A DNA stretch of 64,000 nt from Megalobrama amblycephala (taxonomy: Eukaryota; Chordata; Actinopteri; Cypriniformes; Xenocyprididae): positions 2,454,754 to 2,518,753 of the forward strand of contig NC_063062.1 of assembly GCF_018812025.1 (NCBI RefSeq). Reading direction: 5' to 3'. Shown piece after piece: positions 3,214 to 51,705 of this stretch (position 1 is the first letter of the stretch; each line of letters begins with the position of its first letter). The notes beneath the pieces were generated by a model. It was not told where the DNA came from, did not search any database, and saw only the letters and a program-made list of their open reading frames with translations. The position numbers and the translations under genes were made by a program.

Positions 3214-3676
3214 GCATAAGGAACTGTTTCTTGCCTGTGACAAACTTGTATATCAGACCGTGTACTGGAAGAAGGTAAAAGGGCATTCACAAGCACCTGG
3301 GCCAGACAAAACAGGCAACGATGAAGCTGATAGGTTAGCCAAAGCAGGCGCCATAGCAGGCTCTCCCTGGCAGTTCCAGGAGGAGTGGCTTCCAACAGAG
3401 TCAACTCCTGTAAGTGTTAATGTTGTCACACGTAGGCAAGCAAAGGAGGCAGTGACAACCCTTAATGACACCCCTCAGACTGTAGTGATAGGCAGGCAGC
3501 TATCAGATACTGACCTTATTGCCATGCAAAAACAAGACCCTGTGATCAGCACTATGTACCTATTCATTTCTAACCCAGTAGAGCATCCGATAACTGAGCA
3601 AAATCTGACAGAGTCAAGTGACCTGAAAACACTGTATCTTATCAGACACCATCTGAAGTTAGAAAGGGTTTGCTAG
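3214..3676 (+). pseudogene. Copy A pol: end of RNase H and start of integrase
   Basis: This segment contains [10 protein letters not shown] and [11 protein letters not shown], the C-terminal RNase H motifs including the last catalytic aspartate. A linker and the beginning of the integrase N-terminal region follow. The frame stops at 3676, whereas the homologous protein continues from about 3658 in another frame, so there is a frameshift near 3663. The homologous stretch in provirus B is 46858-47240. Confidence 0.8.
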
Positions 3677-4836
3677 TGTACACTGCTGATGATAATTCAC
3701 CACCTCGATGGGTGGTCCCCACAGCACACAGGGGGATTATGCTTCTGCATGCCCATGATGAACCTTGTGGAGGCCACCGGGGGGTGAAGGCAACGCATGA
3801 GACCCTTCGTCAGTTAGCCTACTGGCCACAGATGAAACAAGACATTGCCGTCTACATCCAGGGTTGTCTAGTTTGTTGTCAGTTTCAACCGGCTAACCCC
3901 CCTCACAGAGCCCCTCTTCAGAAGGCAGGAATAACATTTCCCTGGTCCAACATTCAGATGGATTGGATCGGTCCTGTAGTTACATCCTCCAGAGGTAACA
4001 AATACCTCTTTAATGTGACCTGTGCATTTACAAAGTGGGTGGAATGTCTCCCAGACCGAAATGACACAGCAGAGACAACAGCTATCTTGCTGATTAATCA
4101 TGTGTTTAGCCGGTGGGGGCTACCCCTCTCTGTAGATTCAGATCGAGGTACTCATTTTACAGCCACTGTAATGACTGAACTGTGGAAAATGTTGGGAGTT
4201 CAGGCAAAACTTCACATTTCATTTCACCCTCGGGCATCGGGACAGGTTGAGAGGTCAAACCGCCATATTGTAGGGATGTTGAGGAAGTACATTTCAGCTA
4301 ATGGAAAAGACTGGGATGTAAAACTACCCCTGGTCTTAATGGCAATTAGGTCCACACCTCATAACTCTACAGGTGTCACACCTTTTGAAATGCTGACAGG
4401 GTGGCAGATGACACTCCCCCTGCATCTCCTCTACCAACCTGAAGATGTCAGTGTAGCCAGCGCATATACTGCCCACCAGTATGTGGCAGACCTGAGGGCT
4501 CACCTCAGGCAGACATTCGCATGGGCACAAGAGCATCTGGAGCAAAGTGCTGAGGGCAGGAAAGCATACTACGATCAAAAGGCTAGCTCTACAGAATATC
4601 AGGTGGGAGACAAGGTGATGTATTTTAACTTCACAAAACCAGTGGGTGTTCCAAAAAAGTTTCTCCCAAACTGGTCTGGTCCTCATAAAATTGTAGGAAA
4701 ACTATCACCAGTAGCATACCGCATCAAAATCTCAAAAGGGAAAAGATCCCCTGTGTACAAGTGGGTCCACTTCAACCAGATTAAGCCTTACAAACCCCAG
4801 ATGGGAATAAAGGGGGTAGACACCGCTCAGGAGTAA
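3660..4836 (+). pseudogene. Copy A pol: integrase with zinc-binding, DDE and GPY/F-like domains
   Basis: The integrase has an N-terminal HHCC zinc-binding module ([10 protein letters not shown], then CLVC), and a catalytic core with D at 3961 (MDWIGP), D at 4141 (SDRGTHF) and E at 4249 (GQVERSN). The last two are exactly D-x35-E. The C-terminal segment [18 protein letters not shown] corresponds to the GPY/F module found in Ty3/gypsy, gammaretroviral and epsilonretroviral integrases. The domain is open to its natural end at 4836, but the upstream frameshift and insertion disconnect it from RT. It catalyses insertion of retroviral DNA in related active viruses; here it is a relic. Confidence 0.88.
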
Positions 4837-5005
4837 CTCCGGTTAAGGTGTAAGTTCTAAGACAGTGTAGAGAAATCTATACTGTGTCAGGCACTGTGGC
4901 CAGTGCATCTGTGACTAGTTGTTGTGGCTAGTTATAGTGGTATTTGTTAGTTGTACTCTGCTTATAAAGTATTGAAGTGACACCCCATATTTGTGCAATT
5001 TCAGA
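4837..5005 (+). promoter_or_regulatory. Copy A pol-env spacer with probable env splice acceptor
   Basis: This short non-coding spacer ends in a T-rich tract followed by an AG at 5003-5004, one base before an ATG at 5006 that opens env. A splice acceptor directly ahead of the env start is the usual way retroviruses express env from a spliced subgenomic RNA. The assignment is based on the motif only. Confidence 0.45.
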
Positions 5006-5728
5006 ATGAACCTGCTGAGCCTAATCATAGTGATCTGCGTACTCAATGCAGTACAGCCCTTGGAAATTGTGGAATCAGGTCCTCCTACTGGCATTATACT
5101 TCAGGATGCACCTGGAATTTTAGTGACTGACTGTTACGTGCACACTCAGAGAGTCTTTGTTCGGCTTGACCCCGCTGACGCGTACAAAAAGCATGTGGCT
5201 GGATGGGGAAGGGTCCCCTGGCATGTCGTCCAATGGAGCAAGGACATCATAGGACATGCCCAGTTAGACACAATTCATATGCTTAAACAGCTACAAAAAG
5301 TCACCATAACACAGGAAGAATTAAGAGGAGTTAGACGCCCAAAGCGCTTCCTTGGTACACTACTGACAGCAGCATCAGTCCTAGGCTCACTCTTCTCAGT
5401 GGGTACTTCAACAGTTAACAGCATTAGCATATCCACATTGAAAAAACATGTGGAAGGGTTAAAAAGAGAAATGCCTGAGATACAAGAGAAAATGTATGTT
5501 CAGCAGAAGCAGCTGCAGCTGTTAGACAGAACTTTGGAGGGCACAATCCTCACTGTAAACCTACACACAGCCCTTTTGAATTATACAGTCCACAGTATAG
5601 GCAAGATAGTGGATGTTATACAACATGATTATGCCCATGTACAAAAGGTTCAAGTACTAATGCAAGATTTGCTGAGAGAGGTCAGCTCTGTTGTCGACAG
5701 TTTGGCAGGCAGACTTAATTGCCTCTAA
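5006..5728 (+). pseudogene. Copy A env-like glycoprotein, N-terminal half only
   Basis: The ATG at 5006 is preferred over upstream non-ATG starts because it begins a hydrophobic signal peptide (LLSLIIVICVLNAV). The product has a basic furin-type cleavage site, RRPKR, near residue 117. A hydrophobic glycine- and serine-rich stretch (FLGTLLTAASVLGSLFSVG) follows, as expected for a fusion peptide, and then a heptad-like helical region. This is the layout of a class I viral fusion protein. No membrane anchor is present: the frame runs about five codons into an antisense L1 fragment and stops at 5728. Provirus B preserves only the complementary C-terminal part of env. The copy is truncated and non-functional. 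Confidence 0.7.
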
Positions 5729-25707: not shown

Positions 25708-28566
25708 TTATCTTGACAGGACAGAAGACCCCGGAGTGGAGCCAACATCAAGGTTATAATATTTAATAAATGTGTGCTGGCATGACCATCCAGCTGCATC
25801 ACATATGTCACTCATGGAGACTCCTGACATCAGAGCTTCTGATGCCGCCATACCCCTGGTAGAATGGGCGCGAACATTCAAGGGAGAGGGCTGTCCGGCC
25901 GCTTCGTATGCAAGTGAGATGGCCTCGACCACCCACTTGCTCATTCTCTGTTTTGATGCTGGGCCCCCTTTTTTAGGGGACCCATAACAGACAAACAACT
26001 GATCTGACTTACGCCACAGGGCAGCTCTGTGGACATAAGTATCCAAAGCCCTTACCGGGCATAACAGATTCAATTTTTCCTGATCCGCAGATTCAAATGG
26101 AGGAGGATAGAAAGACTGAAGCACAATGGGGCCTGGGACATTGGTAGGGACCTTTGGGACATACCCCGGTTTAGGATACAGGAATGCTTTCACCATTCCT
26201 GGAGCAAATTCAAGGAAAGAGGGAGCAACAGAAAGTGCTTGTAAATCTCCTATCCGCTTCAGAGAAGTGATAGCTAATAAAAGAATCGTTTTCAGAGTGA
26301 GGAACCTCTCAGGAACCTCCTCTAATGGTTCAAAGGGAGCCTCAGCTAACCCTTGTAAGACCACAGCCAAGTCCCAGGTTGGCACCCTTGTGCGCACTGG
26401 AGGCCTCAACCTCAGTGTGCCACGGAGGAAGCGTGTGACGAGGGGGTCTCGACCTACCGAGATATTCCCCTCAAGAGGAGCATGATATGCTGAAATTGCT
26501 GCAACATAAACCTTTAAGGTTGAGTGAGATAGGCCCTCCGAGAATTTTTTCTGGAGGAATTTTAGCACAAAGCTAACAGAAGAAAGGCCAGGGTCCGTAT
26601 TATTGTGTCTACACCAGGTAGAAAACAAATTCCATTTGTAGGCATACAGCTTCCTCGTGGCGGGAGCTCTGGAGTTAAGAATGGTCTCCACAACCTCGGT
26701 TGGGAGACCAGCATCTATGAATCTGGCCCCCTCAGAGGCCAGGCCCATAGTTTCAGTCGTTCTGGGCGGGGATGTATAATCATGCCGCCCGCTTGAGACA
26801 GGAGGTCCTGTCTGAGAGGAAGCTCCATTGGGGAGCCGTTGAGTAACGACACTAGGTCTGAGAACCATATCCTGGTTGGCCAGAATGGGGCTACCAGTAT
26901 TAGATTGGCCCCTTCTCGGCGTACTTTTTCCAGAACTCCCGGGAGCAGGGCGATCGGGGGAAATGCGTACAGGCGCAGCCTCGGCCACGTCTGTACCATA
27001 GCATCCAGACCCAGAGGTGCTGGATGTGTTAGGGAGTACCAGAGCGGACACTGGGTTGACTCTCCCGAGGCAAACAGGTCGACTTCCGCTCGACCGAAAT
27101 TTTTCCATAGGAGACTCACCACTTCTGGGTGGAGTCTCCACTCCCCGGGCCTTGGCCCCTGCCTCGACAGGGCATCTGCTCCCACATTTTGATGTCCCGG
27201 GATGTAAGCTGCCCTCAGCGAGAGCAGCTTCCCTTGGGACCACAGGAGGATCTGACGGGCCAAGTAATATAGTCGGCGAGACCGCAGACCCCCCTGATGG
27301 TTTATATATGCAACCACTGCAGTGTTGTCCGTACGAACCAACACATGTTAACCTCTCAGGTCTGGGAGAAAGTGTTTCAGAGCTAGGAACACTGCCATCA
27401 TCTCTAGCCGATTTATGTGCCAAGAGAGCTGATGGTCTTCCCAAAGACCCTGAGCTGAGCGACCACTCATGATCACTCCCCAGCCCGTGAGGGAGGCGTC
27501 CGTCGTAAGCATTACTCGACGAGTAGGGGCCCCCAACACGGGTCCCTGGGACAGGAACCAGGGGTCTTTCCACATGGTCAGAGAACGAAGACATCGTTTT
27601 GAGACTTTGATCATGCGAAAGGGATTTCCCCTCGGGGAGAACCCCCTGGTCCTGAGCCACCACTGTAGGGGCCTCATGTGCAGAAGGCCAAAAGGTATCA
27701 CGTTGGACGCAGCTGCCATCAGACCCAGCAGTTTCTGGAACTGTTTTACAGTGAGTGACTGGCCTAACTTCACCCCTTTCATAGCCATAAGAATGGCACT
27801 CACCCGAGCGGGAGACAAATGTGCCCGCATCGTGGTGGAGTCCCACACTACACCCAGATAGTTGGTGGATTGAGCTGGAACTAGCACACTCTTTTTGGCA
27901 TTGAGCCTCAGCCCAAGCCTCTTCATATGGGACAGAACAGCATCTCGATGCTGAACTGCTAGTTGCTCTGACCGAGCTAGAATCAACCAATCGTCGATAT
28001 AATTCAGTATGCGAATGCCCTGGATCCTCAGCGGAGCCAGAGCTGTGTCCACGCATTTCGTGAATGTGCGGGGTGATAATGATAGGCCGAACGGAAGAAC
28101 CCTGTACTGGTAAGCTTCGCCCCCGAAAGCAAACCTGAGGAACTTCCTGTGAGAAGGATGGATGGACACATGAAAGTAAGCATCTTTCAGGTCTATTGCC
28201 ACAAACCAGTCCTCGGACCTGATCTGTGGTATAATCTGTTTGAGTGTCAGCATCTTGAACTTGAGCTTTTGTATTGAGCGATTTAGCACACGTAAATCTA
28301 TAATAGGTCGTAGACCTCCATCCTTCTTTGGAACAATGAAGTAAAGGCTGTAGAACCCTGACTGATTGCTGGGAGGAGGAACCCTTTCTATAGCTCCTTT
28401 TCGCAAAAGTGTCGCAACTTCTTGTTCCATAACCAGAGACTGCTCGGGGGTTACCACTGTGGGAAGAACCCCGTTGAATCTGGGCGGGCGAGACCCGAAC
28501 TGGATCTTGTAACCCTCTTTTATAGTGAGCAGCACCCATTTTGATATATTCGGAAGAAGTTTCCAT
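25708..28566 (-). CDS. DIRS A tyrosine recombinase ORF, with a long overlap across RT/RNase H
   Basis: The 952-codon frame is open throughout. The recombinase domain is the C-terminal third, beginning near MGLASEGARFIDAGLPTEVV and continuing with RAPATRKLYAYKW. Catalytic residues are visible: Arg in KRIGDLQAL, HxxR in HSTRGMAAS, Trp in AAGWSCQ and the presumed Tyr in IKYYNLD. DIRS recombinases integrate the circular DNA intermediate without target duplication. The N-terminal 600 or so codons overlap RT/RNase H in a different frame and look low in complexity with no known domain. Overlap of the last two ORFs is known in DIRS elements, but this overlap is longer than the domain needs. The true start is unknown. 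Confidence 0.85.
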   Translation of the reverse strand: METSSEYIKMGAAHYKRGLQDPVRVSPAQIQRGSSHSGNPRAVSGYGTRSCDTFAKRSYRKGSSSQQSVRVLQPLLHCSKEGWRSTTYYRFTCAKSLNTKAQVQDADTQTDYTTDQVRGLVCGNRPERCLLSCVHPSFSQEVPQVCFRGRSLPVQGSSVRPIIITPHIHEMRGHSSGSAEDPGHSHTELYRRLVDSSSVRATSSSASRCCSVPYEEAWAEAQCQKECASSSSIHQLSGCSVGLHHDAGTFVSRSGECHSYGYERGEVRPVTHCKTVPETAGSDGSCVQRDTFWPSAHEAPTVVAQDQGVLPEGKSLSHDQSLKTMSSFSDHVERPLVPVPGTRVGGPYSSSNAYDGRLPHGLGSDHEWSLSSGSLGRPSALLAHKSARDDGSVPSSETLSPRPERLTCVGSYGQHCSGCIYKPSGGSAVSPTILLGPSDPPVVPREAALAEGSLHPGTSKCGSRCPVEAGAKARGVETPPRSGESPMEKFRSSGSRPVCLGRVNPVSALVLPNTSSTSGSGCYGTDVAEAAPVRISPDRPAPGSSGKSTPRRGQSNTGSPILANQDMVLRPSVVTQRLPNGASSQTGPPVSSGRHDYTSPPRTTETMGLASEGARFIDAGLPTEVVETILNSRAPATRKLYAYKWNLFSTWCRHNNTDPGLSSVSFVLKFLQKKFSEGLSHSTLKVYVAAISAYHAPLEGNISVGRDPLVTRFLRGTLRLRPPVRTRVPTWDLAVVLQGLAEAPFEPLEEVPERFLTLKTILLLAITSLKRIGDLQALSVAPSFLEFAPGMVKAFLYPKPGYVPKVPTNVPGPIVLQSFYPPPFESADQEKLNLLCPVRALDTYVHRAALWRKSDQLFVCYGSPKKGGPASKQRMSKWVVEAISLAYEAAGQPSPLNVRAHSTRGMAASEALMSGVSMSDICDAAGWSCQHTFIKYYNLDVGSTPGSSVLSR

Positions 28567-29165
28567 TCTACCAGAAAATTTACTAAGGGAACCAGTCTCT
28601 CGAGACTGGCCTCTGGTGTTTTTTGAGCACCTGATTCGACGCTCTGAAGCGGCGCACCGGCAGAGAACAATCGAATCAAGTGGCCGGCCCTCCTCAGAGG
28701 GTCGGTGGAGACCGCTGCGCCCTGACGCACACTGGGTGGCAGGGTTGGCATAACAATCTCCTGAGGGCGCCGAAGGAGGGGGCCGCCCTCATCGGTTCCT
28801 GACCCACAGACATCAGGACCGCTTCGAAGCCTTCCGGGCCAGGATAACGGCGCGCAGGTCCGTTCTGCCCCTAGAAGGCTTCGGCTGAGCGGGCCGACCC
28901 GATCCCCAAGCTCTCTGCGGGGGAGCACGGGCGGCCACGCTGATCTTTTGTTGCGCTCTGTGGTGCACTGAGGAGCTCGTTGACGGCCGAGGCTGATCCC
29001 GCTCATCAGCCTCAGGGGGAGGGATTCTTGGTTTGCGGGGGATGAACCTCTGGAACGCCGCAGATTGTTTCTTAGCCTCCTGGAACCTCTCGACGACTGT
29101 TGTAACGGCGTCGCCGAAGAGGCCCGCAGGAGACAGCGGCGCGTCCATAAGGGAGGCTTTGTCAC
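26715..29165 (-). pseudogene. DIRS A reverse transcriptase, RNase H and methyltransferase-like ORF, one nonsense codon
   Basis: The frame contains FYSLYFIVPKKDGGLRPIID, DWFAIDL-type motif A (WFVAIDLKDAYFHVSI), the YIDD box at 27990-28001, then RNase H motifs LTTDASLTGWG and RLEMMAVFLAL. A single TAA at 27348-27350 interrupts it, after which the same frame resumes with VRTDNTAVVAYINHQGG and GADALSRQG. The C-terminal part VDLFASGESTQ, LYAFPPIALLP and LVAPFWPTRIWF is the methyltransferase-like region of DIRS elements. It overlaps the gag end upstream and the recombinase ORF over most of its length. Apart from the one stop the coding capacity is intact. Confidence 0.88.
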
Positions 29166-30241
29166 GCTCCCTTATGTCCGAGAGGTTCAGCCACAAGTGC
29201 CTCTCCGTAGCCACCAATGCTGCCATAGAGCGGCCGATTTCTTTTGCCGTCTCTTTGGTGGCACGAAGAGCCAGGTCAGTTGCCATCCTGATTTCCTGGA
29301 TGCACTCATACGTGGCCTCCCCGCTATTCTCCACTTCCCCCAGCAGGTCGGCTTGATATGCCTGTAGGAGCGACATGGTATGTAGACATGCCGCTGCCTG
29401 ACCTGCTGCCGCATAAGCCTTGCCCACCAAGCCTGATGTAGTTTTTAATGGCTTGGTGGGCAACGTCGGGGTTTTCAGCGACGATGCAGACTCGGGGGAG
29501 AGATAGCCCGCAAGCGTCTCTTCCACCCGAGGCATCGCCGCATAGCCTTGCTGCTTCAGCCCCACGATGTTACTATACATTGAGGTCTGGGGGCTGAAGA
29601 CGCGATATGATGCCGGCTTCTTCCAAGACCTTGAGACCTCGGTGTGGAGGTCCGGAAAGAAGGGCAAACCCCGACGCTGAGGTAGTGACCGAGCGGGCAG
29701 AAAGCGCTCATCCAGCTTACTCTTTGGTCTAGTATCTGCCCGCTCTGCTGGCCAGTCAATTTTTAATTTGGCCACAGCCCTGGTCACTACCTCCAGGAGC
29801 TCCTCATGTGCTGGGGAAGAGGATGGCGGTTCCTCTTCCCCCACGCTCATCACATCAACCTCCTCAGAGGAAGAGAGATGAAGCGCGGGTGCCTCTCTCT
29901 GGGGGGAAGAAACCGCAGCGCGTGCTTCCGCCGCCTGAGAAGAGGCACTGGGGCTGGCAGGTAAAGGGCGAGATAAGGCTGGGCCCGTCTCAACCCCCTC
30001 TGCCAGCTCCATTTGCGAACCCCACGAATGAAGCCGCCGCTGCGCCTCAGCAACAGCGGGACCCGATCCGTGGGGAACGCCGACCGGAGCACCCTCTTTA
30101 TCGTGAAAGAGTGCCCGGCGTGATCTTAAAACTCTGAGGGTGAGCTTCTCGCAATGAACACAGACAGCCCCCTCGAGAGCTGCCTGTGCATGCTCAACCC
30201 CCAGGCAGACAACACACATCTCGTGAGTGTCCCCATCTGGA
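28813..30241 (-). pseudogene. DIRS A gag, main part
   Basis: The frame opens from the LTR junction with DGDTHEMCVVCLGVEHAQAA, a Cys/His zinc-binding-like start, and includes acidic serine-rich stretches (SSSEEVDVMSVGEEEPPSSS) and conserved segments ATERHLWLNLSDIRERDK and APLSPAGLFGDAV that are also seen in DIRS B. The first 19 codons lie on the far side of solo LTR 2 at 32092-32036. The remainder is open to 28813, about 470 codons. It would form the structural protein of the element, but the LTR insertion separates it from its start codon. Confidence 0.82.
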
Positions 30242-32035
30242 TGTAAGGACTTAGCCTATTTATTAGCTCAATTTAATTGTTACAGGGAATAAGAATTGAA
30301 TCAACTGTAAATGATTCACTGTAAATGATTCAGAATTAATATTTAACACTTCATCAATTATTCGTCCAGCGAAAATTGAGGTTAGAGTATTTTACCAATT
30401 CTGGATAAAATATTATTCTGCGGCCAACAGTAACAATATTTTATTATGATTATTGTTATTATTGTAATTATTATATTATAAGCAAGAGGTAACTTGATCT
30501 TTGAGTTTAAGACAGTAATTTGATACACAGCACAAGAAACTCGTATATGTGAAAATCAAAACAAGATTTATTGACTACTTCTAATGATTACAGGAAACTA
30601 AGGCTAAACACACACACACACACACATACATACATGCACACACATTCGCGGAGTTGATGAGTTATGAAAAGTCCCAAGTTCAGTGCTAACTTAACTCATA
30701 ACCTGAGGAAAATCACAAAAGCAGAGCTTTGGCTTGATTCTTTAGGTTTAAAGGAGTTTCACCAGTTTCCAGCAAGAGAGAGAGAAGTTTGCTTGTACCT
30801 GCGTTTGCTGTGACAGCTGAGGTAATCGGGTTGTTCCGTGACTCGTGTACAGCGGAATCCCGTTCTGGATTGGCTGTCTTTCAGGTGACGTCTTCTCGGG
30901 AAAGCCCTGTGGGTTGCGCGGAAGCTTTGAAGGATGCTGCTGGCTGAGCGTCTGGCTTGAGCGGCTCTCTTCTTGGGAGACTTTGGTCAGATATTTCACG
31001 AAGTGTTTTGGAGTCTGGATGTGACGGCTGTCGAATGATCAGCGGCGCAGCTCGTGGTGTTAGATGGAAAATCAGCCCCGGTCAATCAGTTATCAATGAC
31101 CCATGCGACTTTTCCGCCGTGGTCAAAGTAGCGGTGTTTCGGCTACCGGCTTCTGACCGATTTCGAGCAATTTCTGACCGACTTCTGGCTTCCAGCTTCT
31201 GACTTCTGACATTAGCTTGTTCGGACAGCATAGTTTTAAGGGAGCGATCTTCCAATGAGACGTTACTACGGAGATTAGACACGCCTCGTCTATTGTCTAT
31301 TGATCACATCGCGTGATATCTGCAGAACATTCTCCTGTTTTATTAACAACTTTATAAAGTTTCTTAATATTTTCCTGATACTGAATTTCAATGTTTCATT
31401 CACACAGAATTACAGAGAATTATAAATTCTGCATTTAGAACTCAAACATGACACACTTCTTACACACATATTACTAGACTGACCTAATTAAAACAATGAT
31501 TACAATAATGCATTTGAAGAAAACCCACATATTGAATACATTGAATAGACATGTTAGTAATTACATCATGGCATGTATTATTCTGTATATAGTTAATACT
31601 TTAAGTAATCGACAATTGTCCCTTTTGAGATTCAAGATTGAGTCCTTAAGCATAGTTTAAACTTTGACCGGAGTCACGAGTGACCGGGTCACGATGGACG
31701 GTCAACACAAGGGAGGTATTGATAGGACAGATTCGTCTTTAAATCCGTTGATGGGTATTTTCCTGTTCCGTCCGATAATACAAGAGGGTTTTGTGAGAGA
31801 ATCAATAGATTTAATGTGATCAAATCCACGTGATGGGTTCTGATTAGTTTATTGCTGATGAGCTAAGAAGTCCTTTAGACAGAGTCCTTTGTTAAAAGAA
31901 GTCACGTCATCACTCCGGTTAAGGCTAGGCGTTTCCTGTCAGGAAATGGATCTTTTGGACCAAAATGAAGCTTTGTTCAATCATGCCTCTGGCTGATGAA
32001 GCCATTTGGTAACGTCTGTCGAACGAGTCCCTACA
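30242..32035 (-). repeat. Solo LTR 2 of retrovirus family B, inside DIRS A gag
   Basis: TGTAAGGACTTAGCC at the left and CGAGTCCCTACA at the right are reversed LTR ends. The flanking 4 bases are TGGA on both sides (30238-30241 and 32036-32039). The 1794-bp sequence is nearly identical to the 5' LTR of provirus B (37852-39669). No internal retroviral sequence is present, so it arose by recombination between LTRs. It splits the DIRS gag after codon 19. Confidence 0.93.
30609..30626. repeat. (CA)n microsatellite within solo LTR 2
   Basis: The reversed counterpart, (TG)n, occurs at 39283-39302 and 50536-50552 in the provirus LTRs, so the tract is part of the LTR. Confidence 0.85.
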
Positions 32036-32092
32036 TGGAATAAACCGTGTGCATGGGTGAACACACTTTTTAAATTGTCTGCCTTCCGCCAT
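32036..32092 (-). pseudogene. DIRS A gag, first 19 codons
   Basis: On the minus strand an ATG at 32092 opens MAEGRQFKKCVHPCTRFI. Its cysteines and histidine pair with the CVVC motif on the other side of solo LTR 2 to form a zinc-finger-like gag start. The frame is in register with the main gag part when the LTR and one TGGA copy are ignored. Confidence 0.7.
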
Positions 32093-32464: not shown

Positions 32465-33464
32465 TGAGGTTAGAGTATTTTACCAATTCTGGATAAAATA
32501 TTATTCTGCGGCCAACAGTAACAGTATTTTATTATGATTATTATTATTATTATAATTATTATATTATTATAAGCAAGAGGTAACTTGATCTGCGACTTCG
32601 ACCACTTCGACCGACTTTTGACCGATTCCTGACCGATTTCTGACAACTAGCTATTGGGAAAGCATAGTTTTAAAGGAGGAAGTTAGCTCCATCCCCCGAT
32701 GTGTTTCTCCAATGAGACGTTGCTACGGAGCTTAGACACGCCCCGTCTATTGTCCATTGATTGTGATGTCCTTGGAACATAATCATGTTTATCAGTAACT
32801 TCATAAAGTTTCCTAATATTTCTCTGGTACCAAATTTCAATATTCATGCACACTGAATCAAAGAGGATAAAAAACATGACACACTTCTTACACACATATT
32901 ACTTGACTGACCTAATTAAAACAATGATTACAATAATGCATTTGAAGAAAACCCACATATTGAATACATTGAATAGACATGTTAGTAATTACATCATGGC
33001 ATGTATTATTCTGTATATAGTTTAAAATTATCTCTTAATGATGGTCCATTTGAAATTCAAGATTGAGTCTGTAAGCATAAAGTCATTGAACAGCGACCGG
33101 AGTCACAAGTGACCGGGTCAAAATGGATTACTCAACACAAAGGAGGTATAGATAGGACCGATTCGTCTTTAAATCCATTGATGGGTGTTTTCCTGTTCCG
33201 TCCGATAATACAAGAGGGTTTTGTGAGAGAATCAATAGATTTAATGTGATCAGACCCACATGATAGGTTCTGATTAGTTTATTGCTGATGAGCTAAGAAG
33301 TCCTTTAGACAGAGTCCTTTGTTAAAAGAAGTCGCGTCATCACTTCTGTTAAGGCTAGGTGTTTCCTGTCAGGAAATGAATCTTTTGGACCAAATGAAGC
33401 TTTGTTCAATCATGCCTCTGGCTGATAAAGCCATTTGGTAACGTCTGTCGAACGAGTCCCTACA
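32465..33464 (-). repeat. Solo LTR 1 of retrovirus family B, right piece
   Basis: It continues the LTR from TGAGGTTAGAGTATTTTACC to the terminus CGAGTCCCTACA at 33464, followed by the TCCG duplication. Relative to solo LTR 2 and the provirus 5' LTR it is shorter and more diverged, with a reduced U3 repeat block around 32595-32650. Confidence 0.88.
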
Positions 33465-33649
33465 TCCGCATAATACCGAAAAATTAGTTGTGTCTGCAGA
33501 TCTATGCGAACTGGAATAATTTTGATAACGTTTCTGCAAGCATGTGGAAAATGAGCCGTTCAGATTTCGCTCCCCTTGTGATGTAAGAAGGGGATCTTAT
33601 TATAATATTACCACCCCCCATTTTGTTTTCGCAAGCGACAACAGTGTAC

Positions 33650-37690: not shown

Positions 37691-37851
37691 AAAAGAAAGC
37701 GCTTTTTTGTTTACTTTGAGTTTTTATCCACTTGTCTTTTTCAACAACTGTGGCATCCGTTGCTTTATTAACCTGTCTCTCGGGTTTCTTTTCAGTCTAC
37801 TTCTCTTCAAGGGCACCCACGAACAGTTCTGTGTGATCTTCTTGTTCAATT
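37691..37851 (-). pseudogene. Ty3/gypsy gag-protease linker adjoining the provirus
   Basis: The frame EQEDHTELFVGALEEK followed by VNKATDATVVEKDKWIK leads to the protease. It contains one stop and one frameshift in an A-rich run. The AATT at 37848-37851 is the left copy of the provirus B target duplication. Confidence 0.65.
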
Positions 37852-39669
37852 TGTAGGGACTCGTTCGACAGACGTTACCAAATGGCTCTATCAGCCAGAG
37901 GCATGATTGAACAAAGCGTCATTTGGTCCAAAAGATCCATTTCCTGACAGGAAACACCTAGCCTTGACAGAAGTGATGACGTGACTTCTCTTAACAAAGG
38001 ACTCTGTCTAAAGGACTTCTTAGCTCATCAGCAATAAACTAATCAGAACCCATCACGTGGATCTGATCACATTAAATCTATTGATTCTCTCACAAAACCC
38101 TCTTGTATTATCGGACGGAACAGGAAAAGACCCATCAACGGATTTAAAGACGAATCTGTCCTATCAATACCTCCCTTGTGTTGACCGTCCACCGTGACCC
38201 GGTCACTCGTGACTCCGGTCAAAGTTTAAACTATGCTTAAGGACTCAATCTTGAATCTCAAAAGGGACAATTGTCGATTACTTAAAGTATTAATTATATA
38301 CAGAATAATACATGCCATGATGTAATTACTAACATGTCTATTCAATGTATTCAATATGTGGGTTTTCTTCAAATGCATTATTGTAATCATTGTTTTAATT
38401 AGGTCAGTCTAGTAATATGTGTGTAAGAAGTGTGTCATGTTTGAGTTCTAAATGCAGAATTTATAATTCTGTGTAATTCTGTGTGAATGAAACATTGAAA
38501 TTCAGTATCAGGAAAATATTAAGAAACTTTATAAAGTTGTTAATAAAACAGGAGAATGTTCTGCAGATATCACGCGATGTGATCAATAGACAATAGACGA
38601 GGCGTGTCTAATCTCCGTAGCAACGTCTCATTGGAGGATCACTCCCTTAAAACTATGCTGTCCGAACAAGCTAATGTCAGAAGCTGGAAGTCAGAAATCA
38701 GAAGTCAGGAAATCAGTCAAAGGTCGGCCAGAAGCCGGACTGAAGCACAGTCGTTGAAGCCCGTTAGCCGAAGCACCGCTACTTTGACCACGACGGAAAG
38801 TCGCATGGGTCATTGATAACTGATTGACCGGGGCTGATTTTCCATCTAACACCACGAGCTGCGCCGCTGATCATTCGACAGCCGTCACATCCAGACTCCA
38901 AAACACTTCGTGAAATATCTGACCAAAGTCTCCCAAGAAGAGAGCCGCTCAAGCCAGACGCTCAGCCAGCAGCATCCTTCAAAGCTTCCGCGCAACCCAC
39001 AGGGCTTTCCCGAGAAGACGTCACCTGAAAGACAGCCAATCCAGAACGGGATTCCGCTGTACACGAGTCACGGAACAACCCGATTACCTCAGCTGTCACA
39101 GCAAACGCAGGTACAAGCAAACTTCTCTCTCTCTTGCTGGAAACTGGTGAAACTCCTTTAAACCTAAAGAATCAAGCCAAAGCTCTGCTTTTGTGATTTT
39201 CCTCAGGTTATGAGTTAAGTTAGCACTGAACTTGGGACTTTTCATAACTCATCAACTCCGCGAATGTATGTGTGCATGTATGTATGTGTGTGTGTGTGTG
39301 TGTTTAGCCTTAGTTTCCTGTAATCATTAGAAGTAGTCAATAAATCTTGTTTTGATTTTCACATATACAAGTTTCTTGTGCTGTGTATCAAATTACTGTC
39401 TTAAACTCAAAGATCAAGTTACCTCTTGCTTATAATATAATAATTACAATAATAACAATAATCATAATAAAATATTGTTACTGTTGGCCGCAGAATAATA
39501 TTTTATCCAGAATTGGTAAAATACTCTAACCTCAATTTTCGCTGGACGAATAATTGATGAAGTGTTAAATATTAATTCTGAATCATTTACAGTGAATCAT
39601 TTACAGTTGATTCAATTCTTATTCCCTGTAACAATTAAATTGAGCTAATAAATAGGCTAAGTCCTTACA
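37852..39669 (+). repeat. Provirus B 5' LTR
   Basis: TGTAGGGACTCG to GTCCTTACA, 1818 bp, unusually long. It contains a U3 block of related short repeats with TGACCG and GAAGTCAG-type units around 38680-38790, a (TG)n tract at 39283-39302, and AATAAA near 39340, so R and U5 lie in the last 330 bases. It is nearly identical to solo LTR 2. Confidence 0.93.
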
Positions 39670-42387: not shown

Positions 42388-44322
42388 GTGCCAAACATGT
42401 CTCGCACAACAGACCCTGCTGGACACTGGAAGGATCTGGAGACCTGGCTAAGTGTTGTAACAGACAGCCTCCTACCTAAGGCCGCTGAAACACTAAAGCA
42501 TCAGACACAGGACCAGCTGGATGACAACATAGCAAGCCTCATGAAACAGGACCCAAGCCAGAGCTACAGTCACAAAGAACTAGCCAAGATCACCGGCTCC
42601 TTAAGCCACACACTCATCGCCACCCTCAAACTGAGCGACAGGCAAGCCGCCCATCGCCAGCAGGAGCTGACACATGCACAACGGCGCATCGAACAGCTGG
42701 AGCTGGAGGCTCAGGAACGACGAGAAGGGCCTGATGAAGTGGAACAAGGCGCAAAAGAGGAGATCAACAGGCTAAAAGAGACCCTAGCAGCTACTACGCA
42801 AGAAATGGAACGAGGCAGAGCAGACTACGCTGACCTCTCCGACAAGCTACAATACGCAGAACAGCTACTGGAAAAAGCAAAGGCTGACTTCAGAGACAAG
42901 AACAGCCGAATTAAAGCTCTCGAAACTCACCTGAATGAGTCAAGAAATGAGGTCAGCCGCCTAAAACAACAGCTTGACTACATCAAAGAAGAGTCTGACA
43001 GTATTAAAGAGGAACTCAAGCATGCATATGAATTGCGCTGTGAGCCGTCAAGAACACGTCGGACACCGACGTCACCTTTGCCAAGCAGGACCGGCTCCCC
43101 TGTTCCTGGACTGGCACATGATCAGAAGGGGGCAGTGCCAAAACAGTCACCTGCTCCCTCCGAAGAATCCTACCTCCTCACTAAGCTAAAAGAACGTGCT
43201 CCAGCCAGCCACAGATCATCTCATGGCTTGGACCTCAGAGACCTTGACAAGCTTGCTAGAAACATTGGCAAATTCACTCCAAATGTGCCAGGTAGTCCAA
43301 ATGTTCAGAGTTATCTGCAAGATATTGACTTCCATCTGGAGATGAGACCCAATGTCACTGACAAAGATAGACTTTATTTGCTCAGAGCCACATCCAGCTC
43401 TGAAGTGCGCAGCTTCCTGGTCCGGCAGCCTGCCCACACAAAGACTGATTACCACCTGCTCCGAGAAGCTCTCATCAAAGAGTTTGCCGACCCTGAGTCA
43501 GAACGAGGACTAGTGGCTGCCCTGGAAACAAAACAAGGTCGTCACGAAACTCCTCAAGTCTTCTATAGCCGACTAAGGCTAGCATACTTCGGGTCTCGCA
43601 ACGAACAGAGCATGGAGGAGGAATTGAACTTCAAAACTCTCTTCCTGAGAAACCTCCATCCTGGGGTGAGCCACCATCTCGGCGTCCTTGCCTGTCCATG
43701 CACAATGAGTGCTCAACAGTTAAGAGACTTGGCGCACAAAGCCTACTGTAAACAGAAGATGGCCTTAGAAAAGGGCACCAAAACCACCACAGTTCTTGAC
43801 TTCAACACCCAGAGTCGAGGGCTGGCCCTAGAGGGCACCCAGCGTCAAGACCTTGCCAAGCCGACACCCAAAGGGTGGAATGCATCCTCGTCCAACAGAG
43901 AGTGGGACTCCCACACTGGAACTCGACCTAAACTGAGAGACAACCGTTGGGATGGACCACGTGGACAACAACGCTCACCTGGACGTCACTGGGAAAATTC
44001 ATGGAACCAATCAAGACCTCATGAGAGTCATTGGGAGAAAACTTGGAGTCAGCCAAGCTCATTTGGAAACCCTAGAGGGAAAAGCTCATGGGAATCCAAG
44101 GGAAAACGACAAACACACCCTGGAGCAACCAGCCCAAGGAATCGCCGAAAAAACTCACAAAGATTCCAAGCTGACCGAGCTCAAAATGAATCCATACCAG
44201 AACAAAAGACTTCACCTTGTTTCGACTCTCAAGAGCTGATGAAAATGATGATGAAAGAGTTCTTCCAACGAAAGGAGGACGAGCGGAAGTGGGAAGAGAA
44301 AGCGAAACCAGATTCATCCTGA
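42388..44322 (+). CDS. Provirus B gag, long coiled-coil type
   Basis: The 644-codon ORF is intact. The likely ATG is 42397 (MSRTTDPAGH). Residues about 85-215 form a long charged heptad region (LELEAQERREG, EEINRLKETLAAT, HLNESRNEVSRLKQQLDYIK), a predicted coiled coil. Residues about 280-460 resemble a capsid domain (VQSYLQDIDFHLE, DRLYLLRAT, TPQVFYSRLRLAYFG), the last a major-homology-like block. The C-terminus is rich in Arg, Trp and Gly without any CCHC zinc knuckle (WDGPRGQQRSPGRHWENSW). The coiled coil and Arg-rich tail recall spumavirus Gag more than ortho- or epsilonretroviral Gag. It ends in TGA at 44320-44322 with pol directly following in frame. Confidence 0.85.
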   Translation: MPNMSRTTDPAGHWKDLETWLSVVTDSLLPKAAETLKHQTQDQLDDNIASLMKQDPSQSYSHKELAKITGSLSHTLIATLKLSDRQAAHRQQELTHAQRRIEQLELEAQERREGPDEVEQGAKEEINRLKETLAATTQEMERGRADYADLSDKLQYAEQLLEKAKADFRDKNSRIKALETHLNESRNEVSRLKQQLDYIKEESDSIKEELKHAYELRCEPSRTRRTPTSPLPSRTGSPVPGLAHDQKGAVPKQSPAPSEESYLLTKLKERAPASHRSSHGLDLRDLDKLARNIGKFTPNVPGSPNVQSYLQDIDFHLEMRPNVTDKDRLYLLRATSSSEVRSFLVRQPAHTKTDYHLLREALIKEFADPESERGLVAALETKQGRHETPQVFYSRLRLAYFGSRNEQSMEEELNFKTLFLRNLHPGVSHHLGVLACPCTMSAQQLRDLAHKAYCKQKMALEKGTKTTTVLDFNTQSRGLALEGTQRQDLAKPTPKGWNASSSNREWDSHTGTRPKLRDNRWDGPRGQQRSPGRHWENSWNQSRPHESHWEKTWSQPSSFGNPRGKSSWESKGKRQTHPGATSPRNRRKNSQRFQADRAQNESIPEQKTSPCFDSQELMKMMMKEFFQRKEDERKWEEKAKPDSS

Positions 44323-44326
44323 CTAG
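44320..44326 (+). promoter_or_regulatory. Candidate gag-pol stop-codon readthrough signal, TGA-CTAG
   Basis: The gag stop TGA is followed at once by CTAG, and the same frame is open from 44323 through protease. UGA followed by CUA(G) is an established readthrough-promoting context in viral and cellular genes. Gamma- and epsilonretroviruses also make Gag-Pol by stop readthrough, usually of UAG. Confidence 0.65.
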
Positions 44327-46857
44327 CGGCCGGACGAGATGGCAGCGACCACCTGACTCAACACACCTCAGAGAACAGCACCTCATCTCTCTCTCAGAGA
44401 ACCACAAGCACCATAACTTCAAACGGACAAGAAATCCCACCTGAACATCCTGCAAAACAGACAGAAACTGATCCAACACCTGATGGGTCAGATCACAGCA
44501 GTGTCCAACAAACACCTGCTGTGGAAACCACTCCAGTTCCTGAAAGTGCTGTCTTGGTCGTCTGCCACTCCTCCGAAGAAAATGAAATAAATGCTGACAT
44601 CCTACCTCTATCATCCCAAACTCCAGTCCCCCAACTCCTGGGTGATCTCATTGAGAAAGGTATCGCAAGAAAGTTTTACCTCTCCATTATCATCGAACAA
44701 CACATCAAGGTCGAAGCCCTCCTCGACACTGGAGCTGACATCACCCTAATGTCAACAGAACTCCTTGAAGAAGTCCAAAACAGAACAAAGAGGTCTAACG
44801 GAACCTTCAAACTTCAAAGGTGTGAGCTGAACCTCCAAGCATATTCCCACACAGGCCTACAACTAAAACATGTGGCCCCAATTCACCTAACAGTGGGACC
44901 AATGAACCTTGTTCACCCAGTATACGTCTCACCACTCAACACATATCCTCTCCTCATTGGGAAAGACCTGCTTAACCGCTTTGAACCCTTAATAGACTTC
45001 AAACACCTGAAGATGTGGACACAAGTCCGTGAGCCTCTGCCCCTCCAGTCAGTAAACTCCAACGAATTGCAATGTCAAGTCACAGACACCACCCCCCATC
45101 CACTGACTGACGATGCAAGTTCAAAGTCAAGAGCAAGTTCCACTCCAAGCAACAGGAACCAAGACCCATTCCTCTGCTCACTGCAAGCGTCAGACTCAGG
45201 TTCCCTCCGAATCATGACTGCCATAAATGTCCAAGACACACCAGGGCCTGATGCAGCATTAGCCCTGTGGGCTGAAAACTCAGCTATCAGCCTGAAGTTC
45301 TTCAGAACATTGAAGCAGACAAATCAGAGCATACCACACCTCTCAAAGCATAGCCGCTTCCCTCTCAATCCATGGTCAACAACCATGGCTACCTCCAAGA
45401 TCGTCTGTGCTGCAGACATACGATGGAACAACAGACTCTTGAGTCACTACTTCCTGGTTGTCCCCAACCTACCTCATGACATCTACATAGGAGCAGACAT
45501 CATGGTCCGTCTCAACGCCTGCGTTGACACCGTGAATGACGTCATATGGGCTCCCTTGTCACACCAATTGACATCTTCAGTCAACCTCAAGAATCTTCGA
45601 TCTGGTCAAACAATACCAGATGCATGCGCCATGATCAACGAGCAAGAAGCCACAGTCCCCGCTTACAGCAAGAGTGTCAGTGTCCGCCTCAACATGCGAC
45701 CTGGCCAGACCCTTAACAGTAAGCTAGGCTTCTTCCAACCTTCCAGGACCTGCCTAAAACTAGGACTGACCTTGGAAGCCACACCTCTCATAGAAGTGTC
45801 ATCTCGTGCGGTGTATGTGTTGTTCAACAACTGTATGGCCAAAGACATCAATGTGCCAAAAGCCAGTCACCTGGGATGGCTCATCAACCAGGCGTTCCAT
45901 GACTTTGAACTGACAGTTCCTGTCATCGGCCACATACCAGTTGAACTAATGTCAGATGAATGCCACAACACCGTAACTTGCACAAAGCCCCATGAGATCA
46001 TCACCATCACTTCTATTCTGCCGGTGCCTAAAGAAAGTGTCTGCCGATCAGAACTTACAGATGACACTCACCTCGCTGTCTACGCTGTGTCAACACAGAC
46101 TGCAACAGAGTTACCTGTAGAACTGACCGTCAAGACCCACAGTCCCTCGAATGACTCAGAAGAACCCTATGCTGGGTTCAATGCACAAGTCCAACAAATC
46201 CTAAGCGAGGCGGATGCCCTCCACAGTGAGATGGATCGCCAAGGACTTAAAGAAGTTCTGTGCAAATACAAGGACTCCTTCGCAAAGGATTCCCTGGACT
46301 GTGGCCTGACTGATATCCACATGGTGCGCATCCCAACTCACCCAAATGCGCCACCGACATTTGTGCGGCAGTACAAGATTCCAATAGCATCATACGAATC
46401 AGTGCAAGATATCATTGACTCCATGCTACAAAAGAGGGTCATCCGACCCTGCAACAGCACCTACTCCGCCCCGATATGGCCAGTCCTAAAGCCAAACGGC
46501 AAATGGCGGCCCACCATTGACTATCGCAAATTGAACCAGCAAGTTCCCTTATCGCGATGGCCTATGACTCAATTGGACCAAGAGATTCCCAAAATCAAAG
46601 GCTCCACGATCCTATCCACACTGGACGTCGCCTCAGGATTTTGGACAATCCCTGTCCACCCTGATGACCAACACAAGTTGGCGTTCACCTTTGGCAATCG
46701 ACAATTCACCTTCACAAGGTGCCCCTTCGGCTATGCCAACTCCCCAGCTGAATTCAACGGATGGAAACAGAACGGATTCAAGACAGCTAACAACAAGCCT
46801 GTCAAACATCAGGAACTTTTCCAAGCATGCGATGCCATTGTCACCACCAAGACATGA
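44323..46857 (+). pseudogene. Provirus B pol: protease, duplicated protease-like region, truncated RT
   Basis: The frame is open from the gag stop. A retropepsin has ALLDTGADITLMS at 44719-44757 and a C-terminal LLIGKDLLNRF. A second region with IVCAADIRW, FLVVPNLP, then IYIGADIMVRL near 45485 parallels the protease C-terminal half without a DTG. A further 270 residues (RPGQTLNSKLGFFQPSR, SHLGWLINQAFHDFEL) precede RT. RT begins with FVRQYKIPIASYES and runs to CPFGYANSPAEF at 46756, where about 1.2 kb present in copy A is missing in frame: the YVDD box, thumb, tether and most of RNase H. The frame ends at 46857 by a frameshift within RNase H. Confidence 0.88.
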
Positions 46858-48405
46858 TCATCTACTGGAAAAAGGTCCGTGGTCATTCACGCCAACCAAA
46901 CCGATGCCCTTGCCAAAGCAGGTGCATCACATGGAGAGCCTTGGAAATTCCCATCCCTCCCACCCAACCCTTCAGTTGCAGCCATAACCCGCCACCAGCA
47001 CGCCGTTGGTGCGCAAACCCCCGCCTCCTCCCATGTTGAACTCTCACCTCAGTTCACTGCAGATGATCTCCTCACCCTCCAAGCGTCGGATCCAACGCTG
47101 CAAACCATTATCGCTCACATTTCCGACCCAATAACTCATCCCATTTCCACCTCCGACCTATCCAATTCCTCTGATCTCCGCCACCTTCACTCAATCAAGC
47201 ACATGCTGCATCTCAAGGACGGCGTTCTCACATATGTCCCTGAGCCCCTAACTGCGCCAAAGCTTGTAGTTCCTCAGAGCCAAAGGGGGATAATGCTGAC
47301 ACACGCCCACGATGCACCATGCGCTGGACACCATGGCGCCAAGGCCACCTATGAAACGCTCAAACAAGTAGCATATTGGCCTGGCATGCAGCAAGATGTG
47401 ACGGAATATGTAAAAGGATGCCTGGTGTGTTGCCAGTTCCAACCGGCAAACCCAAACCACAGAGCACCACTACAATGGAAAGGAATGACCTTCCCATGGT
47501 CTGACCTCCAAATAGATTGGGTAGGACCCCTGCCACGGTCAACACGGGGTAACAAATACTTCCTCACCGTGGTTTGCGAATTCACAAAGTGGGTAGAGTG
47601 TCTCCCAGCTCCCAACGATACAGCAGAAACAACAGCCTGCCTGTTAATGAACCACATCTTCTCAAGATTTGGACTGCCTCTAAGAGTCAACTCTGACCGA
47701 GGAACCCACTTCACCGCTGAGGTTATGCAGGATGTATGGAAACTCCTGGGCATACAGGCCAAGCTTCACATAAGCCATCATCCAATTTCCTCAGGGCAGG
47801 TCGAACGGGCCAACAAGACAGTGGCAAGCATGTTGAAGAAGTATGTGTCCGCCAACCAAAAGGATTGGGATATCAAGCTCCCTCTGGTACTGACGGCCAT
47901 CAGGGCCACCCCTCACCGGTCTACCGGAGTAGCCCCATTCGAAATGATGACAGGGCGACAAATGACACTACCGCTACACCTGCTGTACCAACCTGGTGAC
48001 ATGAACCTTGTCACCGCCTACACCACTCACCAGTATCTGGAAGAGTTGCATCAGCACCTGAGAGCGACTTTCGCCTTCGCACAACAAAACCTCCAGAGAA
48101 GCGCGGAAGGTCGTAAAGCCTACTACAACAAAAAGGCCTCTTACCAAGAACTCAATGTCGGAGACAAAGTGTGGTACTACAGCTTTGCCCAGCCGAGGCA
48201 GAAAGCTCCCCATCGCCTGTCAAAGAAATTCCTACCTCACTGGACAGGACCACATGAGATTGTGGACAAGCTCTCACCTGTCGCCTACCGAATCAAAATC
48301 AGACAAGGCCGCAACGAGCCTGTCCTTCGATGGGTCCATCGGAACCAGATAAAGAGGCACCAAGGTTCCAACCGACAGGAAAAGGGGGAGGTTCAAACCC
48401 ACTGA
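46858..48405 (+). CDS. Provirus B pol: end of RNase H and complete integrase
   Basis: The frame used from 46879 begins with the last RNase H motif ([10 protein letters not shown]). The integrase follows with an HHCC module ([12 protein letters not shown] then CLVC), catalytic D at 47515 (IDWVGP), D at 47695 (SDRGTHF) and E at 47803 (GQVERANK). Spacing between the last two is D-x35-E. A GPY/F-like module, [18 protein letters not shown], ends the protein. All integrase residues look intact over about 390 codons; only the connection to RT is lost by the upstream deletion and frameshift. It would insert viral DNA with a 4-bp duplication, which matches the duplications seen at the family's three sites. 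Confidence 0.9.
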
Positions 48406-48680: not shown

Positions 48681-49461
48681 GCTTGCCCATTATCGATTCG
48701 AATAATATTTACAGGCTCAAAGATGTTGTGAATGTTTGATTTTGGCAAGGGAATACCTATGTCAAAGTACACACTCCTGAGGTTGTGGCGTACCACGACA
48801 ACAACAAACAGTTGTACCTGGCCCCAAACCTAAAGATGTGCACGCTCATTAAAGACATTCATTACCTTTGCCCGAGTAAACCATTCGTATTTGATAATAC
48901 CAAGGGCATCTGCGGCCTAGAATCAATTAGACCCGACACGATACTGCCACGCGCATTATCCTGCCTAAACAAACGCTCTGGATCAATGTCCCTAAGGGCT
49001 CGATCCTCCATATCGACGATCTTGCAGTGTATCACGACGATGAGTACCAGGCTGAACTCGAAATCTCACCGTACTTCAAACAGCATTCCTTCGTCCTCGA
49101 TCCAGAATCGGAAGAAAGGATCAGGGAGGAATGAACGCAACTTATTGATCTGACTCCTGTTGATACAGCCTTAGAAGCTATAGCTCGCCTTCCGCCCGCT
49201 GGCGTGCTATTCATTCGGTTTTGGTCTGCTGCTGACACAGCGCTTTGCATCTCTACCATTGTAGGATATATTGTGACCTTGACACTGGCCTTCATCCTGC
49301 ACAAGCGAGTGAACGCCGTGCAAGAGTCTTTTGATAGATGCACGACGGGCGTCCCACGCATTTTTCGACGTGATAGAACTGACCAAGAACCCGAACTCGA
49401 GAACTCAACCAACCTGATTGAAATCACGCCTCCACCTCCTCGTCGAACCACTGACAATTAG
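48681..49461 (+). pseudogene. Provirus B env-like remnant, C-terminal half with membrane anchor
   Basis: One frame reads VVAYHDNNKQLYLAPNLK followed by cysteine-containing segments MCTLIKDIHYLCPS and GICGLES. After frame changes, 49204-49461 gives a hydrophobic span, STIVGYIVTLTLAFIL, a probable transmembrane anchor. A proline-rich cytoplasmic tail, ITPPPPRRTTDN, ends at 49461. The layout fits the ectodomain end, anchor and tail of a viral fusion glycoprotein. The signal peptide, furin site and fusion peptide are absent, so the remnant is non-functional. Confidence 0.6.
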
Positions 49462-49685: not shown

Positions 49686-50919
49686 TGTAGGGACTCGTTC
49701 GACAGACGTTACCAAATGGCTCTATCAGCCAGAGGCATGATTGAACAAAGCTTCATTTGGTCCAAAAGATCCATTTCCTGACAGGAAACACCTAGCCTTG
49801 ACAGAAGTGATGACGTGACTTCTCTTAACAAAGGACTCTGTCTAAAGGACTTCTTAGCTCATCAGCAATAAACTAATCAGAACCCATCACGTGGATCTGA
49901 TCACATTAAATCTATTGATTCTCTCACAAAACCCTCTTGTATTATCGGACGGAACAGGAAAAGACCCATCAACGGATTTAAAGACGAATCTGTCCTATCA
50001 ATACCTCCCTTGTGTTGACCGTCCACCGTGACCCGGTCACTCGTGACTCCGGTCAAAGTTTAAACTATGCTTAAGGACTCAATCTTGAATCTCAAAAGGG
50101 ACAATTGTCGATTACTTAAAGTATTAACTATATACAGAATAATACATGCCATGATGTAATTACTAACATGTCTATTCAATGTATTCAATATGTGGGTTTT
50201 CTTCAAATGCATTATTGTAATCATTGTTTTAATTAGGTCAGTCTAGTAATATGTGTGTAAGAAGTGTGTCATGTTTGAGTTCTAAATGCAGAATTTATAA
50301 TTCTGTGTAATTCTGTGTGAATGAAACATTGAAATTCAGTATCAGGAAAATATTAAGAAACTTTATAAAGTTGTTAATAAAACAGGAAACTCCTTTCTGA
50401 AACTCCTTTAAACCTAAAGAATCAAGCCAAAGCTCTGCTTTTGTGATTTTCCTCAGGTTATGAGTTAAGTTAGCACTGAACTTGGGACTTTTCATAACTC
50501 ATCAACTCCGCGAATGTATGTGTGCATGTATGTATGTGTGTGTGTGTGTGTGTTTAGCCTTAGTTTCCTGTAATCATTAGAAGTAGTCAATAAATCTTGT
50601 TTTGATTTTCACATATACAAGTTTCTTGTGCTGTGTATCAAATTACTGTCTTAAACTCAAAGATCAAGTTACCTCTTGCTTATAATATAATAATTACAAT
50701 AATAACAATAATCATAATAAAATATTGTTACTGTTGGCCGCAGAATAATATTTTATCCAGAATTGGTAAAATACTCTAACCTCAATTTTCGCTGGACGAA
50801 TAATTGATGAAGTGTTAAATATTAATTCTGAATCATTTACAGTGAATCATTTACAGTTGATTCAATTCTTATTCCCTGTAACAATTAAATTGAGCTAATA
50901 AATAGGCTAAGTCCTTACA
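49686..50919 (+). repeat. Provirus B 3' LTR, internally deleted
   Basis: It has the same ends as the 5' LTR (TGTAGGGACTCG, GTCCTTACA) but is 1234 bp, 584 bp shorter. The missing block corresponds to 5' LTR positions of about 38556-39140, and the junction reads AAACAGGAAACTCC. LTRs are identical at integration, so this loss or a conversion is later. Confidence 0.93.
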
Positions 50920-50923
50920 AATT

Positions 50924-51705
50924 TCATGAACTTTTTTTACTGTGAACCTTGTTTTGTCTTTATGTTTTTGCATTTTGCACATTCTTTTTTTGGCGACACA
51001 CTTTACATATTTGTCCATATGCAGGACACTTCCTCGGTTCATGCCTGTAACCACATCTGGTACACTCCTCTTCTTTCTTTGACCATGCGTTTTGAGCAGA
51101 ACTATTCTCAGGTGACTTCTTTGTTAGCTTTAGCTTGCTAATTTTATTCACAGTCACTTCTGTTTCTTCATGGAGTGCTTTAATTTGGCTTTTTGTGACT
51201 TCACTCGCTCTGCAGATATCCACAGCTTTGTTTAGATCAAGATTCGGTTCTCTTAAGAGTCGAGCTCTTATTTGATCATTGTTTACACCACACACTATGC
51301 GGTCTCGGATCAGTGATTCAGTCAACTGTGCAAATTCACATTCTTTGGCTTTGTTTTTTAACTCAGTCACATATGCATCAATCAATTCAGTCAGTCCCTG
51401 AGCTCAAGTGAAAAACATGTGCCTTAGATATATTAAATTTTATGCCTGAATTGTTTTTTCAGTATTTCATAATCATTCGCTTCCTCCTCTTCAAAATCCA
51501 TGGTATTAAATACCTTTATCACTTCATCTCCTGCAACATGAAGAAAAGTGGCACATTTTATCTTGCCTGATTTCTCAGATGTTCCGCTTGCAACTAGATA
51601 CAACTCAAATTTCTGTATCCAGGTTTGCCAGTTTTCAGCTGTATTTCCTTCGAAGCTCAGTTCGTTTGGAGGTTTAGCTGGTCCATTGTGAACTTCTGAC
51701 ACCAT
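50924..51705 (-). pseudogene. Ty3/gypsy gag
   Basis: On the minus strand the ATG at 51705-51703 opens MVSEVHNGPAKPPNELSFEG and continues with NWQTWIQKFELYLVAS, typical of gypsy gag. After a break near 51400 it continues with YVTELKNKAKECEFAQL, DRIVCGVNNDQIRARLL and a zinc knuckle, CTRCGYRHEPRKC (C-x2-C-x3-H-x4-C), then a second Cys cluster disrupted by a frameshift. The A of the start codon is the last base of the LTR. The coding sequence is cut at 50923 by the provirus and resumes at 37851. Confidence 0.85.

Follow-up and report, generated by a model that had tools for sequence, protein, structure and literature searches.

A Conserved UGA_CUAG Stop between gag and pol Points to Programmed Readthrough in a BHIKHARI/Lokiretrovirus-like Element of Cyprinid Fish

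The DNA considered here (the window) is a stretch of 64,000 nucleotides from Megalobrama amblycephala (contig NC_063062.1, positions 2,454,754 to 2,518,753), which carries on its plus strand a long terminal repeat (LTR) element whose gag and pol share one frame and are separated by a stop codon. The gag (42397–44322) is read from the ATG at 42397, the lister of open reading frames (ORFs) starting it at the GTG at 42388, and runs without any earlier stop to the TGA at 44320–44322; its product is 98% identical to P0001 of M. amblycephala. The TGA is directly adjoined by CTAG (44323–44326), and these seven nucleotides (44320–44326) constitute the putative readthrough site, as judged from the sequence and from the comparison of copies described below. 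Past the TGA, 844 open codons follow in this frame, against 40 and 41 stops in the two others over the same stretch. It leads through a linker that has no in-frame ATG (44323–44640) into the protease, with the DTGAD motif beginning at 44725 in the gag frame, and on into a truncated reverse transcriptase (both within 44641–46857). After an internal deletion, a second TGA (46855–46857) ends the pol frame, and behind it an integrase stretch continues in the same frame (46858–48405, Pfam Integrase_H2C2 and rve). An earlier reading of the window, made from its letters alone and called here the sequence-only reading, had found only one stop, with CTAG next to it, between gag and an open frame into the DTGA protease, and the frame reading bears this out. 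Since only 4 of the 2,846 TGA trinucleotides on both strands of the window, the gag-end site included, are followed by CTAG, the occurrence of the motif at this position is more than chance.

The comparison with other copies at the end of gag, proposed in the sequence-only reading as a check, bears mainly on two subfamilies of the same genome. In the scan for the window subfamily, 40 of 61 candidate copies were scored, the window included, and TGA-CTAG is present in 40/40. The motif is also still present in L063 and L070, two members of this subfamily in which the frame is broken upstream of it. A second subfamily was found via the protein P0201; 75 of 1,172 matches were scored and 30 loci compared, and TGACTAG occurs in 17/17 aligned copies, 15 of which are read in frame to the stop. 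Two of the 17 (L044 and L058) have the motif together with a broken reading frame, and L057, outside the 17, has it too, while the site was not found in L061, which is among the 30 loci. Eight further loci of the 30 are window-subfamily copies with TGA-CTAG and overlap the 40, and L063, L070, and L062 (described below) also belong to the 30. The subfamily-2 copy that was compared with the window has its protease in the gag frame and is 40% identical in Gag and 49.5% in Pol, the nucleotide identity being 70% over the 150 nucleotides upstream of the motif and 63% downstream. A search for the relatives' DNA in viral contig and genome contig collections found none, and L001, one match of a DNA pattern search, was rejected as a chance hit surrounded by stops.

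The linker that follows the stop is under coding constraint. Across the 29 other window-subfamily copies, the linker has a nonsynonymous/synonymous ratio of 0.52, next to values of 0.50 for gag and 0.47 for the protease; each variant was counted once against a reference copy and not on a tree. The linker is free of both stop and deletion in 25 of these 29 copies.

The protein relatives were also considered. The Gag search gave 251 relatives, and the figures rest on the 120 listed, of which 39 end at the gag stop and 26 run on with tryptophan (W) at the stop position. The former include, among the matches listed, proteins from six named genera (Megalobrama, Sinocyclocheilus, Cyprinus, Puntigrus, Garra, and Danio); the pattern behind the latter required LA after the site, where P0175 has QA, and two further W cases come from the Pol search. 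The 37 alignments that span the junction have W in 28 cases, R in 4, E in 2, S in 1, and gaps in 2, most of the W rows being near-identical sequences and not independent, and most of the other rows being weak or chance alignments. Eight relatives end at the out-of-frame TGA at 43797 while 3 run on there with W, and W also falls on the out-of-frame TGA codons 44541 and 44595, in frame-shifted tails. Because W appears at these out-of-frame codons too, the W at the gag stop is best put down to sources of the protein sequences that render TGA as tryptophan. Two gene models have a sense residue at the aligned site (R in P0156 and C in P0154), each one base from TGA.

On these comparisons, we consider it very probable that Gag-Pol of this BHIKHARI/lokiretrovirus-like cyprinid element is made by programmed UGA_CUAG readthrough. 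The UGA readthrough predicted in the sequence-only reading is thereby supported, by the motif in all 40 and all 17 copies and by the common frame. In the proposed mechanism, the element RNA would be translated into Gag, most ribosomes stopping at UGA-CUAG, and a minor share of them would decode the UGA via a near-cognate tRNA. The latter would continue in frame through the linker of about 100 codons into the protease and Pol, resulting in a low and fixed share of Gag-Pol. We infer the readthrough itself, its rate, and the ability of the short motif to work without a strong 3′ structure. The statement that UGA-CUA(G) is a known readthrough context agrees with the literature: the same seven nucleotides give efficient readthrough in four mammalian genes, up to ~31% in OPRL1, with ~1.5% for UGA-CUA alone (PMC4132726).

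A number of results weigh against this assignment. In the window subfamily, 170 of the 495 seven-nucleotide windows of the junction stretch are as invariant as TGA-CTAG, so the conservation in 40/40 copies is weak evidence when taken alone; subfamily 2 is the stronger test of conservation. In subfamily 2 the linker is freer, with ratios of 0.45 in gag, 0.73 in the linker, and 0.25 in the protease. L062, one copy of a third family, with a Gag 62% identical to that of the window, has TAA-CTAG at 3448–3454 and is the sole copy seen with TAA. No pol match was found in the ~1,050 nucleotides downstream of its stop, and a DNA search with its junction returned itself and only copies at 69–72% identity. 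Among the older loci, 5 of the 8 fetched (L075–L079) read from capsid to protease in a single frame with no stop, no gag-pol stop of the TGA-CTAG kind was found in L073 and L074–L081, and the protein P0166 has no stop at the aligned gag-pol site. Of what the sequence-only reading had named as counter-evidence, sense codons and other stop contexts are absent from the scored and aligned copies of the two subfamilies, and a different frame for the protease is absent from the subfamily-2 copy compared; departures appear in L062 and the older, stopless relatives. Within this genome the two main subfamilies keep the stop, but not every relative does. As a separate observation on L075–L079, which are older subfamily-2 relatives, the capsid almost abuts the protease, and the nucleocapsid region, the stop, and the linker are missing in all five.

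The downstream RNA also weighs on this side. Folds 3′ of the stop are no better than those of shuffled sequences (z of 0.42, 0.07, and −1.16 for 60, 100, and 200 nucleotides, respectively), and in a home-made pseudoknot screen of 90 nucleotides, a weak test on one sequence, 27 of 200 shuffles are at least as good. The stem or pseudoknot for which the sequence-only reading had suggested a search therefore does not rise above shuffles. In addition, the sequence flanking the UGA of Tca2 is insufficient for readthrough in Saccharomyces cerevisiae (PMC2194720). Readthrough at a short UGA motif is nevertheless the best reading, because UGA_CUAG is efficient in the four mammalian genes and no 3′ structure stands out from the shuffles.

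We have also considered three alternatives. That ribosomes re-initiate, or enter internally, past the gag stop to make Pol is very unlikely. For several relatives the listed Pol protein begins with a Met in the linker or later, and other copies may have usable starts; in the window copy, however, the earliest ATG in frame (44749) is already beyond the protease motif and is preceded by ATGs of another frame (44339 and 44483), which speaks against re-initiation there. Such a route does not need a common frame and TGA-CTAG, yet both are kept in the two subfamilies. Removal of the stop from the Gag-Pol messenger by splicing or editing appears highly improbable: gene models that skip the stop do exist (e.g., P0161 and P0128) and may be annotation artefacts, but the coding constraint extends over the full length of the linker, from the stop onwards, and the bases that are kept are those of the known readthrough motif. 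Hardly any credence can be given to a TGA that arose by chance as a nonsense mutation in a once-fused gag-pol frame and is carried by decayed copies, for although P0166 lacks the stop, P0156 and P0154 have sense residues, and the window copy is itself defective, the same codon with CTAG in every scored or aligned copy of two subfamilies and the same stop at the Gag end in six named genera already contradict it for these subfamilies.

The preferred reading, programmed readthrough at UGA_CUAG, can be compared with other systems in which a stop separates gag from pol. The sequence-only reading held that known retroviral cases mostly use UAG with a pseudoknot. This is true of the murine leukaemia virus type, in which a stop likewise separates gag from pol within a single frame, but this stop is UAG and has a pseudoknot several nucleotides 3′, where the fish element has UGA-CUAG and no structure above chance (PMC3835772, PMC5009743). 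The contrast is less exceptional than was suggested, since UGA gag-pol junctions are already known elsewhere (Tj1/Tosmo, XtERV-S, and Tca2). In two epsilonretroviruses, a readthrough survey detected no pseudoknot behind the stop of gag (PMC3835772, PMC5009743). The fission yeast elements Tj1, Tosmo1-3, and Tcry1 separate gag from pol by an in-frame TGA with CTA or CTG next to it, and in Tj1 the pol has no AUG and the stop is required for transposition (PMC10085805, PMC4600332). These are fungal elements of the Ty3/gypsy chromovirus type, whereas the fish element has the full CTAG. XtERV-S of Xenopus, a vertebrate endogenous retrovirus (ERV), resembles the present element in having gag and pol in one frame and a TGA between them; it is a class III ERV with an ERV-L-like gag, and the likeness noted here is that of the frame and the TGA (PMC8278194). 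Tca2 of Candida albicans shares the UGA and the single frame, and differs in a possible 3′ pseudoknot and in the insufficiency of its local context in the assay host mentioned above (PMC2194720). The UGA_CUAG readthrough genes and the alphaviruses share the same seven nucleotides, which there serve cellular extensions or replicase genes and not a gag-pol junction (PMC4132726). The word "readthrough" is absent from the main text of the lokiretrovirus-naming papers PMC9040795, PMC10996621, and PMC12440569, the founding lokiretrovirus paper lying outside this scope.

The kinship of the element was assessed through its Gag. The window Gag is 62% identical to the Danio rerio protein P0063 (617 residues) and 64% identical to P0057 (593 residues), these two being 59.6% identical to each other. 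Bik-1 is reported to have 617 residues and Bik-2 to be 60% identical to it, Bik-2 being crestin (PMC10996621); P0063 and P0057 would fit Bik-1 and Bik-2, as judged from length, start residues, and mutual identity. BHIKHARI elements are described as relatives of lokiretroviruses, and zebrafish embryos reportedly require their Gag (PMC10996621). The likeness to the window element lies in the Gag homology, and the difference is that Bik-1 and Bik-2 copies are reported without pol, whereas the window gag is followed by an in-frame, broken pol (PMC10996621). Points of contact between the element and the lokiretroviruses and Odin are a vertebrate host, an env-like stretch, and a dual RNase H in some relatives (PMC9040795), but the window copy has lost the RNase H part. 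A lokiretrovirus Env would resemble the fusion glycoproteins of Mononegavirales, and neither the env-like remnant of the window element nor the ORF at 4991–5728 of the related element described below has a meaningful Pfam match; a lokiretrovirus reverse transcriptase would group with Odin as sister to canonical retroviruses. A Tether-like and a further RNase H are found in the relatives P0128 and P0153 and were not found in P0122 at the threshold used; the region is deleted in the window copy. By sequence, the solved reverse transcriptases nearest to P0128 are 7kse/7ksf (158.6 bits), 7o24 (154.2), the Ty3 structure 4ol8 (143.1), and 4mh8 (113.1). On sequence grounds we therefore class the element as BHIKHARI-like, from its Gag homology, and call it lokiretrovirus-like without taking it for a proven lokiretrovirus.

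The window element is young, yet not intact. Its 5′ LTR (TG...CA, 37852–39669, plus strand) and 3′ LTR (49686–50919, plus strand) differ at only 2 of 1,224 aligned nucleotides, which indicates the young age, and they are flanked by an AATT target-site duplication (37848–37851 on the left and 50920–50923 on the right), read from the flanks of both LTRs. Relative to two relatives, ~365–381 Pol residues are missing between the SPAEF motif of the reverse transcriptase and the RNase H end. An env-like remnant on the plus strand (48931–49461), taken as env from its position and a membrane-like stretch, is interrupted by an in-frame TGA (49132–49134) and has no meaningful Pfam match. The predicted model of Gag has a helical N-terminal region, helices at 283–462, and a lone helix at 614–639 just before the stop; with a mean pLDDT (predicted local distance difference test) of 49, it is of low confidence and too uncertain for a fold search. 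The 5′ LTR and a solitary LTR both contain a segment of ~590 nucleotides (38554–39147) that the element's 3′ LTR lacks, suggesting that the 3′ LTR underwent a deletion or an exchange later on. The solitary LTR, of the same family, lies on the minus strand (30241–32036), is 96.7% identical to the 5′ LTR, and has TGGA on both sides; further LTR pieces occupy 32707–33465.

Other elements are found in the window. A second, related one enters from the left edge (25–5728), with a reverse transcriptase 63% identical to P0122 and an integrase that shares 65% identity with the main element's; it was followed upstream (L032), and no gag end was found there. Its ORF at 4991–5728 contains a basic RRPKR-FLG stretch and looks like an envelope protein, with no meaningful Pfam match and no PDB match. 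On the minus strand, 25708–29165 is occupied by long ORFs that overlap one another and contain stretches resembling a reverse transcriptase and a recombinase, possibly a DIRS-like element; an ORF of 141 amino acids at 50960–51385, also on this strand, resembles, by eye, a Ty3/gypsy gag and has no Pfam match.

A wider interpretation can be offered tentatively, and we regard it as possible but rather doubtful. The BHIKHARI/lokiretrovirus-like lineage of cyprinid fish may need no stimulatory RNA structure and set its ratio of Gag to Gag-Pol by the short vertebrate UGA_CUAG motif alone. This signal would have been kept down to 40% protein identity and released upon loss of pol, this last part resting on one copy (L062, with TAA and no detectable pol). 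On this view, the stop that ends the zebrafish Bik Gags with a role in development would have served for recoding in the past. As it stands, the element provides what would be a conserved natural case of UGA_CUAG readthrough with no evident RNA structure, from a vertebrate retroelement lineage that stands near the retroviruses, and it suggests how the relatives of BHIKHARI may express Pol.

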